Of a stretch of 64,000 nucleotides of DNA, positions 17,119-21,003 are shown piece by piece. Source of the stretch: Microbacterium candidum. Its GTDB lineage: Bacteria > Actinomycetota > Actinomycetes > Actinomycetales > Microbacteriaceae. Below the pieces are notes generated by a model that worked only from the letters and a program-made list of their open reading frames with translations, searched no databases and was not told where the DNA came from. A program made the translations under genes and the position numbers. Each line of letters starts with the position of its first letter. Within the stretch, counting starts at the first letter, position 1. The stretch spans positions 248,001-312,000 of the forward strand of contig NZ_JASXSZ010000004.1 in the NCBI RefSeq assembly GCF_030315975.1. The letters are read 5' to 3'.

Positions 17119-17129
17119 TCTCAGGAATG

Positions 17130-17165
17130 ACGGATGCCCGGGGCCGTTCGGCTCCGGGCATCCGT
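17130..17165 (+). terminator. hpf terminator hairpin
   Basis: Arms 17130-17145 and 17150-17165 (16 pairs, one G-T) with a four-base loop GTTC. It is the only stem-loop seen in the hpf 3' region. Confidence 0.75.
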
Positions 17166-17211
17166 CTGTTCGCGGTCTGTCGGCCGCTCGCCGGCTGTCG
17201 CCTGCGAGGGA

Positions 17212-18543
17212 TCAGTTGTCGAAGATGTCGTCGATGAGGCCGCCGATGACGAGGCCGCCGAGCACACCGCCCATGACGTCGCCCATCCCGCTGCGCGGCT
17301 GGCCGCCCCATCCGCCCTGCTGCGGGTAGCCGCCGGGCTGGCCCCAGCCGCCGTACGGCCGCGCGCCGTCGATGTCGCGCTGAGCCGCGGCGAGCGCCTC
17401 GCTCGCGAGCGTCGCGACGCGCCGAGCCGTGTCGAGGGCAGCGGCGCGGTCGTCCTCGGCGACTGTGGACCCTTCGGGAAGACGTGCGCGCAGACGCTCC
17501 GCCTCGGCGAGCCGCGTGCGCGCATCGGCGCCGATCCAGCCGCGCTGGCCCGCGATGACGTCACGCGCCACGTACAGCTGCCGATCCGCGTCGTCGAGGG
17601 CGTTCTGCAGCTGCGCGGGGGACGGCGGGGGGTTGGCGATGCGCTCCCGGGCTGCGGCGACCGCCGCGTCCAGGGCGGAGTTCGCCTCGCGCAGGCGCGT
17701 GAGGTCGGCGAGCGGGTCGGTCTTCGCACCCGAGGGAGGCAGTGCCGCGAGGGCGGCGGACAGCGCCTGCGCCGCCGACACGATCGCGGGGGACTGTGGC
17801 AGCGAGCGAGCGACGACGAGATCGCCGCGCGAGTCGTCGATGACGGCGGAGAGGGTCGATTCGGCGCGCAGCGCCTCGATCTCGTACGTCTCGAGGGCGT
17901 CGAGCATCGCGGACGCGCGGCGGACCGACTCGGTGGCGGCCTCCAGCGCCGTGTTGCCCTGCTCGCGCTGCCCGGCGGCGCGGCGGCGCTCCGCCACGTC
18001 GGCGCTGTGCGCGGCGAAGTCGAGCAGCTGTGCGGCGTTCACGGGGATCTGGGCGACGTTCTGGAGCGCCTCGGGGGAATAGCGCTCGGAGAGCCGGGCG
18101 AGCGTGTCCCGGGCCGGGGCGATGCGCTCGCGGAGGGCCGCGGCATCCGTCTGCACCTTCGTGAGGATCTGCGGGGCGTTGCGGGCGAGGGCGATCGGCT
18201 GCGCGAGCGCCGCGGTCTTCTCGTCGAGCAGGTTCTCCGCCCATTCGCACAGCTGGACGATGCGCGCGTTGCGCGTGCGCAGTTCCTCAGGAGTGTCGGG
18301 GATCTCGTCGTGGTTCAGCTGATTGAGCTGGAACGCCTCCGCCATGTGCGTCTTGACGGAGTCGAGGGCGGCGTTGAGATCCGCCGTCGCGTTCTCGCCG
18401 AGCTCCGCGATCGCGAACTCGAGCTCGTCGGAGGTCAGGCGGATGCGCTCATCCGCCTCCACGAGCGCCTTGCGCGCCCTGATCTCGAGATCGGCGTCCG
18501 CCGCATCCTGTTCACGCTTGCGCTTGCCCCAAAAGCCGGCCAT
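17212..18543 (-). CDS. Coiled-coil protein with Gly-rich hydrophobic C-terminus
   Basis: 443 residues, not assigned to a named family with confidence. The first residues are MAGFWGKRKREQDAADADLE; there is no signal peptide. Residues about 10-385 are almost entirely Ala/Glu/Arg/Leu helices with heptad character, and the last ~60 residues have GGWGQPGGYPQQGGWGG followed by a short hydrophobic stretch (GGVLGGLVIGGLIDDIFDN). The C-terminal style resembles the tail of TPM-domain proteins of actinobacteria, but no TPM domain is seen. Leftward, single gene, with the GTYTCGCG array in its upstream region. Could be a cytoplasmic scaffold or PspA-like structural protein; function unknown. Confidence 0.7.
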   Translation of the reverse strand: MAGFWGKRKREQDAADADLEIRARKALVEADERIRLTSDELEFAIAELGENATADLNAALDSVKTHMAEAFQLNQLNHDEIPDTPEELRTRNARIVQLCEWAENLLDEKTAALAQPIALARNAPQILTKVQTDAAALRERIAPARDTLARLSERYSPEALQNVAQIPVNAAQLLDFAAHSADVAERRRAAGQREQGNTALEAATESVRRASAMLDALETYEIEALRAESTLSAVIDDSRGDLVVARSLPQSPAIVSAAQALSAALAALPPSGAKTDPLADLTRLREANSALDAAVAAARERIANPPPSPAQLQNALDDADRQLYVARDVIAGQRGWIGADARTRLAEAERLRARLPEGSTVAEDDRAAALDTARRVATLASEALAAAQRDIDGARPYGGWGQPGGYPQQGGWGGQPRSGMGDVMGGVLGGLVIGGLIDDIFDN

Positions 18544-18632
18544 CCCCCGATCCTACGGTCGGGGTCCTTCGGGTCCGCTGGGTGCTCGCTGAGGGCGTAG
18601 CGGGGATGCCGCGACGGTGATGCGCGAGGCGC

Positions 18633-18864
18633 GGTCTCGTGGGAGGGCCCTGACCCTGCGAGGGCGTCCCGGTCTCGTGCGAGACTCGCGGTCGCGGCGA
18701 GACCTGGAGTTGGGCGCGAGACCGAGTGCGGTGCGCCCCGTTTCGCGCGCAACGCCCGGTCTCGCGGCCGGGCCGCCCCGTTTCGCGCGGCACCAGGTTT
18801 CGCGTACGGGCGGCCCCGTGCGCGCGCAACACCCGATTTCGCGGGCAGGCGGCCGGGTTTCGCG
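18633..18864. repeat. Array of GTYTCGCG-type short repeats
   Basis: The 363 bases between the coiled-coil gene and the helicase gene contain no credible gene. Ten copies of GGTCTCGY or GTTTCGCG (one with a G-to-A change) lie on both strands: 18633, 18671, 18697 (reverse), 18716 (reverse), 18740, 18758, 18780, 18797, 18836 and 18857. The copy at 18672-18685 forms a palindrome, GTCTCG-TG-CGAGAC. Spacing is irregular (about 16 to 40 bases). The upstream part is GGTCTCG, the downstream part GTTTCGCG, as if two subfamilies had diverged. It may hold regulator sites for the leftward coiled-coil gene, or be a 3' structure of the helicase mRNA. Confidence 0.65.
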
Positions 18865-18906
18865 CGAAGCGACGGGTTTGGGCGGCAGGACGCAGAGCGG
18901 CGCGTC

Positions 18907-20793
18907 TCAGCTGTCGCGGGTGTGGCGGGGCTTGCGCGGCGGGCGGTCGTCTCGGTCGTAGCTGCGTGAGCGGTCGTCGCGGTCATAGCTGCGCGGACGC
19001 TCGTAGCCGCCCCGGTCGTCGCGGTCGCCGCCGTAGGGACGGCGCTCGCCGTCGTTCCGGCGCGGACCGTCATGGCGGCGCGGGGCGCGGCCGGTGTCGA
19101 TGCGCAGCTCGATCGGGCGGCCGGAGATCTCCGTGTCGGCGAGGCGGTCGAGCGTGTCGCGCGACATGTCCGACGGGAGCTCGACGAGCGAGAAGTCGGG
19201 CATGATCTTGATCGCCCCGAAGTCGTCGCGCCGCAGACCCCCCTCGTTGGCGAGCGCGCCGACGATCTGGCGGGGTTCGACGCGCTGCCGCTTGCCGAGG
19301 GCGATGCGGTAGGTCGTGAAGCCTTCGCGCGGCTGGCGGCGCTCGGGGCGGTCTGGCCGCTCGAAGCGGTCGCCGCGGTCGGGTCGGTCGCCGCGCTCGC
19401 GGTCGGGCCGGCGGAGCTGCTTCGGCTCGGGGTCGGGCTCGAGAAGGAGGGGAGTGTCGCCCTGCGCGACGATCGCGAGGGCGGCCGCGACATCCGTCTC
19501 CGGCACGTCGTGGTGGCGAACGTAGTGGGCGATGATCTCGCGGAAGCCCTCCATCCGGTCGCCCTCGCCGAGCGCGGCCGTGATGCGGTCGTCGAAGCGC
19601 GACAGGCGCGTCTCGTTGACGGCGTCGACGCTCGGCAGCGGGATCTCGGTGAGCTCCTGGCGCGTCGCGCGCTCGATCATCTTGACGAGCCCGCGCTCGC
19701 GCGGCGTGACGAAGCTGATCGCGTCGCCGGTGCGGCCGGCGCGACCGGTGCGGCCGATGCGGTGTACGTACGACTCCGCATCCGTCGGGATGTCGAAGTT
19801 GACGACGTGCGAGATGCGCTCCACGTCGAGGCCGCGCGCGGCGACGTCGGTCGCGACGAGGATGTCGAGCTTGCCCGACTTCAGCTGGTTGACGGTGCGT
19901 TCGCGCTGCGCCTGCGCGATGTCGCCGTTGATCGCGGCGGCCGAGTACCCGCGGGCGCGGAGCTTCTCGGCGATCTCCTCCGTGACGCTCTTGGTGCGGC
20001 CGAAGACGATCATGCCGTCGAAGTTCTCGACCTCGAGGATGCGGGTGAGGGCATCCATCTTCTGCTGCCACTGCACGACGAGGTAGCGCTGGGCGATGTT
20101 GGCGGAGGTCGCCGTCTTCGCCTTGACGGTGATCTCCTCCGGGTCGTGGAGGTACTGCTTCGACATGCGGCGGATCGTGGCCGGCATCGTCGCGGAGAAG
20201 AGGGCGACCTGCTTCGTCTCGGGCGTCTCGGCGAGGATCGTCTCGACATCCTCCGCGAAGCCCATCTTGAGCATCTCGTCGGCCTCGTCGAGCACGAGGT
20301 ACTTGAGCTCGGAGAGATCGAGCGTGCCCTTCTCGAGGTGGTCGATGATGCGGCCCGGGGTGCCGACGACGACGTGCACGCCGCGGCGCAGCGCCGATAG
20401 CTGCACGCCGTAGCCCTGACCGCCGTAGACGGGGAGGACATGCACGCCCTTCAGGTGCGCGGAGTACTTCTCGAACGCCTCGCAGACCTGCAGGGCGAGC
20501 TCGCGCGTGGGGGCGAGGACGAGCGCCTGCGGGCTCTTCTGCGTCACGTCGAGACGGTCGATGATGGGCAGCGCGAACGCGGCGGTCTTGCCCGTGCCGG
20601 TCTGCGCCATGCCGACGACGTCGCGACCGGCGAGCAGCGGCGGGATGGTCGCCGCCTGGATCGCCGAGGGCGCCTCGTAGCCGATCTCCTTCAGCGCTTT
20701 GAGGACCGGCTCGCCGAGGGCGAGGTCGGCGAACGTCATCGCGGCGGGCTCGGCGGGAGCCTCGGTCTCGATCTGATCTGCGTCGGCGTGCAC
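18907..20793 (-). CDS. DEAD-box RNA helicase (DeaD/CsdA type)
   Basis: 628 residues, GTG start at 20793. Q motif region FADLALGEPVLKAL, motif I AQTGTGKT (63-70), Ia PTRELA, II DEAD (169-172), III SAT, VI HRIGRTGR (about 345-352). After the helicase core come a DbpA-type RNA-binding domain (TTYRIALGKRQRVEPRQIVG) and a basic, repetitive tail with DRDDRSRSYDRDDR. It unwinds RNA for ribosome assembly and decay, often cold induced. A leaderless start is possible: TACGCT lies five bases before the GTG. A second start, ATG at codon 19 (MTFADLALGEP), is an alternative. Single leftward gene. Confidence 0.92.
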   Translation of the reverse strand: MHADADQIETEAPAEPAAMTFADLALGEPVLKALKEIGYEAPSAIQAATIPPLLAGRDVVGMAQTGTGKTAAFALPIIDRLDVTQKSPQALVLAPTRELALQVCEAFEKYSAHLKGVHVLPVYGGQGYGVQLSALRRGVHVVVGTPGRIIDHLEKGTLDLSELKYLVLDEADEMLKMGFAEDVETILAETPETKQVALFSATMPATIRRMSKQYLHDPEEITVKAKTATSANIAQRYLVVQWQQKMDALTRILEVENFDGMIVFGRTKSVTEEIAEKLRARGYSAAAINGDIAQAQRERTVNQLKSGKLDILVATDVAARGLDVERISHVVNFDIPTDAESYVHRIGRTGRAGRTGDAISFVTPRERGLVKMIERATRQELTEIPLPSVDAVNETRLSRFDDRITAALGEGDRMEGFREIIAHYVRHHDVPETDVAAALAIVAQGDTPLLLEPDPEPKQLRRPDRERGDRPDRGDRFERPDRPERRQPREGFTTYRIALGKRQRVEPRQIVGALANEGGLRRDDFGAIKIMPDFSLVELPSDMSRDTLDRLADTEISGRPIELRIDTGRAPRRHDGPRRNDGERRPYGGDRDDRGGYERPRSYDRDDRSRSYDRDDRPPRKPRHTRDS

Positions 20794-21003
20794 AGTTCAG
20801 CGTACCGGGGTGGGCCTGGGAAGCGACAGGATGCCGCGGCCTACGCGCTTTGCGCATCCGCTCCGGCTGCACTTGCCGGGCCGGATTCGTCGCCCGGAGC
20901 GATGAGACGACGCGTCAGGCCCGGCGAGGGAGCGTCGCCGACGTTCGCCAGGCCCGAATCGTCGCGTCGGCTTCGCGAAACGGCGAATCGGGGCCGTCGG
21001 AAG

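Follow-up and report, generated by a model that had tools for sequence, protein, structure and literature searches.

Why does one intergenic gap of Microbacterium candidum hold ten copies of a six-base word, on both strands, and does this array stand alone or belong to something more widespread? The gap lies in a stretch of 64,000 nucleotides, the whole of which was analysed and is called the window here. A sequence-only reading had described the gap as gene-free and as lying between a DEAD-box helicase gene and an unnamed gene, which it labeled a coiled-coil gene. The description of the gap agrees with both the ORF list and a codon model, neither of which places a gene in the gap; both neighbors are on the minus strand, and the gap starts after the helicase stop. 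The unnamed gene matches no Pfam family at E 0.001 and no NCBIfam family at E 1.

Arrangement of the array

The features of the locus are as follows.

17212 to 18543, minus strand: unnamed gene downstream of the array, with a match in 294 of 295 genus genomes
18544 to 18906, no strand: intergenic gap with the whole array, flanked by the stop of the DEAD-box gene and the start of the next gene
18634 to 18639, plus strand: outlying half-site GTCTCG, 38 bp (2 x 19) before the next
18672 to 18685, no strand: close palindrome GTCTCG-TG-CGAGAC, two half-sites, by sequence
18680 to 18685, minus strand: additional half-site CGAGAC, lying 18 bp beyond the canonical element
18698 to 18764, no strand: canonical 67-bp element, CGAGAC-N13-CGAGAC-N17-GTTTCG-N13-GTCTCG, an exact match to the genus-wide pattern
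18746 to 18858, plus strand: degenerate direct repeat of three 36-nt copies at steps of 38 and 39 bp, each step equal to two units, from a repeat search
18780 to 18785, plus strand: extra half-site GTTTCG
18797 to 18802, plus strand: extra half-site GTTTCG
18836 to 18841, plus strand: half-site ATTTCG with one mismatch, 39 bp from 18797 and 21 bp from 18857, by sequence
18857 to 18862, plus strand: extra half-site GTTTCG
18907 to 20793, minus strand: DEAD-box RNA helicase gene (DeaD/DbpA type; Pfam DEAD, Helicase_C, DeaD_dimer and DbpA), whose 3' end the array follows

The gap carries ten GTYTCG/CGARAC hexamers on both strands, starting at 18634, 18672, 18680, 18698, 18717, 18740, 18759, 18780, 18797 and 18857. 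Three minus units (18680, 18698 and 18717) are followed by five plus units (18740, 18759, 18780, 18797 and 18857) to make a palindrome, and two more plus units, 18634 and 18672, lie to the left of the minus units. Hexamers of the same orientation follow one another at steps of 17 to 21 bp, or twice that, and the step is 19 bp both from 18698 to 18717 and from 18740 to 18759. The initial count of ten copies of GGTCTCG or GTTTCGCG is right for the hexamer, but strictly there are nine of these longer words (five of GGTCTCG and four of GTTTCGCG), given that the site at 18680 has no preceding G. The palindrome GTCTCG-TG-CGAGAC is present where it had been reported, whereas the rule that the third base is C in the 5' half and T in the 3' half holds overall with an exception at 18759, which belongs to the 3' half and has C.

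The density of hexamers is out of the ordinary

Dinucleotide shuffling of the gap, repeated 20,000 times, gave between 0 and 7 hexamers, compared with the ten observed, and the densest 300 bp elsewhere in the window has 4. A background from the same genome, made of 684 kb of its 4.35 Mb (the window plus 31 stretches of 20 kb), contains 254 gaps of at least 60 nt; the gap at 18544-18906 ranks first among them for hexamers, and the next six have 9, 8, 7, 7, 6 and 6. The longer word GGTYTCGCG occurs 226 times genome-wide versus 72 for its reversed control, such that the word itself is moderately over-represented, whereas its concentration in this one gap exceeds the ordinary. Judged by the shuffles and by the other gaps, such a density is not a matter of chance. 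The possibility that the remaining hexamer-rich gaps hold the same element was rejected for the five viewed of the next six, which instead hold a hairpin family beginning with GGTCGTTGAGCGAG. The next gap upstream of the helicase gene (20794-21003) has local repeats of a different sequence, GCCGGGCCGGATTCGTCGC and GCCAGGCCCGAATCGTCGC, together with an inverted CGGCGAATCGGGGCCG.

The core of the array is a palindrome dispersed through the genus

The central part of the array, at 18698-18764, is a palindrome of four hexamers with the form CGARAC-N13-CGARAC-N17-GTYTCG-N13-GTYTCG. When direct gaps were fixed at 13 and the inner gap was allowed to vary from 10 to 35, this pattern was present in 217 of 366 Microbacterium genomes, and its reversed-pattern control gave zero among the matches listed. 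Forward counts reach 57 in one genome (G054) and 55 in another (G163), and there are six in the genome studied here. A copy was also seen in the background sample from this genome (L052). Since 149 of the 366 genomes have no exact copy, the element is not essential. All copies come from pattern searches, with loci chosen because the pattern matched. That the class of element is real we consider almost certain.

The spacing of the hexamers is quantized. Among 113 distinct four-hexamer copies the inner gap is 17 (62 copies), 18 (9), 28 (31) or 29 (3), with other values in 8, so that 105 of the 113 have an inner gap of 17-18 or 28-29 bp; the difference between 17 and 28 bp is about one turn of B-DNA. 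A three-hexamer pattern in which both gaps were free to vary from 6 to 30 gave 134 matches listed from ten genomes. The direct gap was 13 in 88 readings, where a copy may be counted once per strand, and the inner gaps of these 88 were 17 (40), 18 (8), 28 (39) and 29 (1), with nothing else. This free-gap pattern was found in 114 of 119 genus genomes, although some matches look like chance occurrences in coding sequence, and its reversed control gave 0 or 1 per strand. In the genome under study, CGARAC-N(10-17)-CGARAC has 65 matches versus 6 for the reversed form, and N13 accounts for 22 of the 65. The ruler is not absolute, as variants with lengths of 77, 79 and 82 bp also occur.

Of the 13 genus members in an order-wide search, 10 carry the four-hexamer pattern, as do 6 of the 284 other genomes, for a total of 16 of 297. 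The six outside the genus belong to three families (f6, f7 and f9); their copies keep the geometry but have different spacers, and the inner gap is 18 in every copy listed for f7 and f9. In a family-wide search the three-hexamer pattern was matched in 40 of 299 genomes, some of them by chance. A related series with a different arrangement, CGAGAC-N13-CGARAC-N15-GTCTCG, was seen at G632:C1:1225414-1226480 and also in G592 and G493, all from one genus of the family (g64), with several units about 130 bp apart. Another variation on the theme occurs in the genome of the window at L169 1266-1452 (C1:1357265-1357451), where each copy of a tandem repeat of about 120 bp contains a four-hexamer element beside CGCTGATGTCGGCGC words.

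The geometry bears on the idea that the array is parS or another site for the ParB family. The parS consensus has abutting, inward half-sites, TGTTTCAC-GTGAAACA, and GTTTCGCG is one change from a parS half. The resemblance ends with the half-site. The hexamers of the element point outward (CGARAC ... GTYTCG), opposite to those of parS; they are separated by 17-28 bp; there are many copies, and these are located at gene ends; and GTTTCACG occurs 0 times in the window. The doubt about parS that was voiced from the outset was well placed, and the chance that this is a ParB-family site is next to nil.

The array in its enlarged form appears private to one genome

The helicase gene is adjacent in 16 of 35 loci from relatives, and those 16 gaps contain 0 or 1 hexamers. 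At two loci where the helicase gene is not adjacent (L023 and L024), three and two hexamers are found in the 250 bp before the downstream gene. A DNA search of the 366 genus genomes found no full-length match to the array besides its own. Matches at E 0.001 or better were obtained in 38 of the 366, the source genome included, and of nine other matching loci viewed, three (L076, L080 and L081) led to an intergenic element and six had no array. Six plasmid records matched 8-11% of the query with a best E of 0.09, none of them meaningful, and Rfam gave no match in the window at gathering thresholds. From these comparisons the array as a whole appears to be private to this genome. Absence from close relatives had been named as an observation that would speak against a specific array. 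The array is indeed missing from this gap in relatives, but to take this as a refutation would be misleading, because its building block is present elsewhere in most of the genus.

A related proposal was that the repeats are a relic of tandem amplification, in which case the array would be a slippage product without function that is palindromic by accident. In its 3' half the array has degenerate direct repeats of 38-39 bp, and it is absent from the 16 gaps with the same neighbors; both are what such a history would leave, and amplification may explain the extra units that flank the core. The core itself is one copy of a dispersed palindrome whose 67-bp geometry recurs in 217 of 366 genomes, and as an account of the array in full this explanation is therefore very improbable.

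Spacer sequences differ among species

The hexamers and their distances are conserved, while the 13-mers and the inner part vary by species, as illustrated by CGAGAC-CCCGGGTTCACGC in G029, CGAGAC-GGGGTTTGCAGCA in G078 and CGAGAC-TAGCCCCCGTCGT in G038. In 118 outer units, the information content outside the hexamer stays within 0.8 bit at every position. Copies within one genome resemble each other, and G054 has two subfamilies, in one of which (type A) the copies differ at few positions. When five copies from the genome of the window were compared, each in the better orientation, 32-51 of their 67 positions agreed, of which up to 24 are in the hexamers.

The arms of the element are largely complementary, and ten elements or strands folded singly gave z values from -4.6 to -17.4. 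Specifically, the window core at 18698-18764 folded alone gave -5.6 on the plus strand and -4.6 on the minus strand, while the whole 363-bp gap (z -0.68) folds no better than its shuffles. The set with an inner gap of 28 comprises 20 copies, 13 of them from G029. Pairing in its inner stem greatly exceeds that of shuffled partners and involves several pair types and compensating changes, whereas for the outer 13-mers the majority of positions are close to the shuffled level. The set with an inner gap of 17, made of 36 copies from mixed species, has arms that agree at most spacer positions well beyond what shuffles give, a result that could come either from hairpins or from species-specific symmetric binding sites.

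Other comparisons do not follow the pattern expected of paired RNA. The A/G position of the hexamer has no covariation between arms for either the outer or the inner pair, in a weak test on 59 copies of which only 10 and 21 are variable. Among 28 type A and 20 type B copies of G054, arm covariation is absent at nearly all positions, with type B position 19 as a clear exception, and positions 26 and 28 of the type A arms match less than chance. The most likely source of this apparent anti-pairing is an asymmetric progenitor from which the copies descend and which is present in both orientations. RNA covariation was rejected as the sole explanation, being supported in the inner-gap-28 set but not in G054. 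We judge it slightly more probable than not that the half-sites are recognized one by one in duplex DNA, with the hairpin potential strengthened in some species.

Copies lie at the 3' ends of genes

Convergent genes flank 59 of the 104 distinct copies for which flanks were available, codirectional genes 30 and divergent genes 4; another 9 overlap a called ORF and 2 have no called neighbor. This set was de-duplicated, with 4 copies with short flanks skipped. The 254 gaps of at least 60 nt in the background include 37 convergent, 132 codirectional and 85 divergent ones, and by Fisher's test the copies are enriched in convergent gaps (p = 4e-18) and depleted from divergent gaps (p = 2e-9), with neighbors called by a codon-score gene caller trained on this window and the background taken from this genome only. 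Some convergent gaps hold little beyond the element, leaving 3 + 6, 2 + 3 and 2 + 4 nt at three loci (L146, L150 and L154, respectively). Placement differs in G054, where 12 of 15 copies with flanks are codirectional.

This location invites the explanation that the element is a plain bidirectional intrinsic terminator, or an RNA hairpin that protects 3' ends, whose hexamers are inherited by descent without any reader protein. The position at gene 3' ends, the stable folds and the compensating changes in the inner-gap-28 stems are all in keeping with it. In addition, own-genome hairpins of at least 12 bp are found in 30 of 47 convergent and 45 of 161 codirectional gaps, compared with 2 of 83 divergent gaps. 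In most of the 29 loci shown, an ordinary terminator can be made out by eye in the convergent gap that follows the downstream gene, and at one locus (L017) a variant of the element with outer hexamers TGAGAC/GTCTCA stands where the others have the terminator. In the window, the corresponding site at 17129-17166, between a convergent S30AE-domain gene and the unnamed gene, has a terminator-like hairpin with 18-nt arms that are 94% complementary.

Several properties of the element are at odds with an ordinary terminator. U-tracts are rare: in 99 of 101 copies no more than 4 T occur in the 12 nt after either end, in the other 2 there are 5, and the T fraction is 0.116 after the element versus 0.191 after the best hairpin of the 47 convergent gaps, in a comparison that used mononucleotide shuffles. 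TTTTT does directly follow one G054 copy (L289). A terminator also provides no evident reason for an inner gap fixed at 17/18 or 28, or for the unpaired extra half-sites in the window and at L081, and hardly any covariation is seen in G054. We therefore regard an RNA hairpin without a reader protein as improbable.

Evidence on mobility

The copies might instead constitute a miniature mobile element, similar to a MITE or a REPIN, in which the arms are terminal inverted repeats, the CGARAC pairs are contacts for a transposase, and an enzyme acting in trans makes the copies. Gene 3' ends would then simply be places where insertions are tolerated, consistent with divergent gaps that are nearly free of copies. 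The complementary arms do constitute terminal inverted repeats. There are close subfamilies within a genome (type A comprises 28 of 48 G054 copies), with asymmetric arms in both orientations, and presence is patchy across genomes. The flanks of 15 G054 copies have little in common beyond CCG on the left (15/15) and CGG on the right (12/15), so that the shared sequence stops about 3 nt outside the hexamers. In three genomes (G175, G120 and G113), neighboring copies are 120-149 bp apart.

Other observations weigh against mobility of this type. The Y1 (RAYT-type) transposase, PF01797, was found in 0 of 20 genomes, 13 of which are element-rich or the source genome, whereas the same search matched 5 of 14 control genomes. 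No target duplication is evident by eye in the 15 G054 copies. Between G185 and G295, two genomes that are close by flank identity, the six elements compared are all at orthologous places, in pairs that were picked by eye from matching elements and that represent six of the seven exact copies per genome. The all-G form of the four-hexamer pattern was found in 0 viral contigs, and carriage by phages was rejected as a candidate on these grounds. On balance, we consider a miniature mobile element rather unlikely, though it is a stronger contender than a bare hairpin.

Comparison with known dispersed palindromes

To our knowledge, known dispersed palindromes are families by sequence. ERIC and other intergenic palindromes of about 100 bp are long imperfect palindromes in transcribed 3' regions that are defined by their sequence. 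The element described here is also a long imperfect palindrome, but its geometry is fixed and its sequence is largely free between species. It resembles intrinsic terminators as a stable hairpin between convergent genes or at 3' ends, and differs in its rare U-tract, fixed hexamers and quantized spacing.

The nearest likeness is to REP and BIME sequences. As described in the main text of PMC3733652, the GTAG and CGTC super-families are short dispersed palindromes that lie mainly downstream of coding regions, between convergent or unidirectional genes. REPs are often paired in opposite orientation, and some families are species-specific (PMC3733652, main text). The same text reports that many families prefer heterodimers and suggests that this protects against degradation and clearance by enzymes such as SbcCD. 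A term search of that main text did not find the words Actinobacteria, Microbacterium, Clavibacter or Leifsonia.

The element shares with REPs its palindromic form and its intergenic position at 3' ends. However, no unpaired GTAG or CGTC tag is seen by eye in the displayed flanks, and the ends of the element, CGARAC and GTYTCG, pair together. Furthermore, conservation concerns a hexamer and its spacing rather than the sequence of a stem, and most copies are 67-68 or 78-79 bp long. The element also resembles REPINs, with two inverted arms in one hairpin and subfamilies within a genome, but the Y1 transposase was not found in any of the 20 genomes searched. A RAYT-REP reading is accordingly unsupported, and because it lacks both REP tags and a RAYT enzyme we have not filed the element as a REP. 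No description of an element of this kind was found among the matches listed in the open-access literature.

A proposed reading of the array

We tentatively propose, with confidence that falls a little short of even, that the array represents an enlarged copy within a family of short, REP-like palindromes dispersed between genes, and that a putative protein reads CGARAC half-sites in duplex DNA and acts at gene ends. The family would be built from 19-bp units that each start with CGARAC, and a protein tuned to each species would read two half-sites per arm. We infer such a reader because spacing that changes in steps of about one helical turn, and the missing arm covariation in G054, are hard to obtain from RNA pairing alone. 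The same rigid spacing across species, together with the A/G position of the hexamer that does not covary, gives indirect support to the early suggestion that the array binds protein cooperatively, which stays plausible.

When bound, the palindrome at gene ends could serve as a two-way transcription stop or as a topological or insulating site. A role in ending or insulating transcription is suggested by the position of the copies and has a close to even chance of being correct. The subfamilies suggest that copies have spread from progenitors within a genome. In the window, a single core copy behind the DEAD-box gene would have gained units on either side, and these added units may give a longer binding tract there.

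The copies share a ruler and one hexamer, and the remainder is rewritten from species to species, which points to a reader protein whose specificity drifts. A broader and more doubtful reading is that several families of one actinobacterial order carry a system in which a sequence-specific putative protein co-evolves with the spacers of its species, reads CGARAC at rigid intervals (19 bp in each arm and, across the dyad, 23-24 or 34 bp), and either mobilizes the palindromes without a RAYT or uses them as bidirectional insulators of gene ends. Because a genome can hold as many as 57 copies and the ruler distinguishes 17/18 from 28 bp so clearly, both the reader and the role are open to direct test.

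Other palindromic repeats in the genus

The hairpin family that was encountered in the other hexamer-rich gaps is a second dispersed family of this genome. Its members begin with GGTCGTTGAGCGAG, have CGAGACGAAACGC or CGAGTCGAAACGC ends, and also hold CGARAC words. Sites were seen at L045 11402-11790, L060 11849-12206 and 14803-15246, and L067 180-357, with further ones at L064 12790-12947, L072 15275-15387 and L074 14734-14893, in both convergent and codirectional gaps. Upstream of the unnamed gene, three loci from relatives (L011, L018 and L026) contain inverted repeats of unrelated sequence, such as GTTCAGAATTCAGGAGA ... TCTCCTGAATTCTGAAC in L026, which suggests that the genus may harbor more palindrome families.
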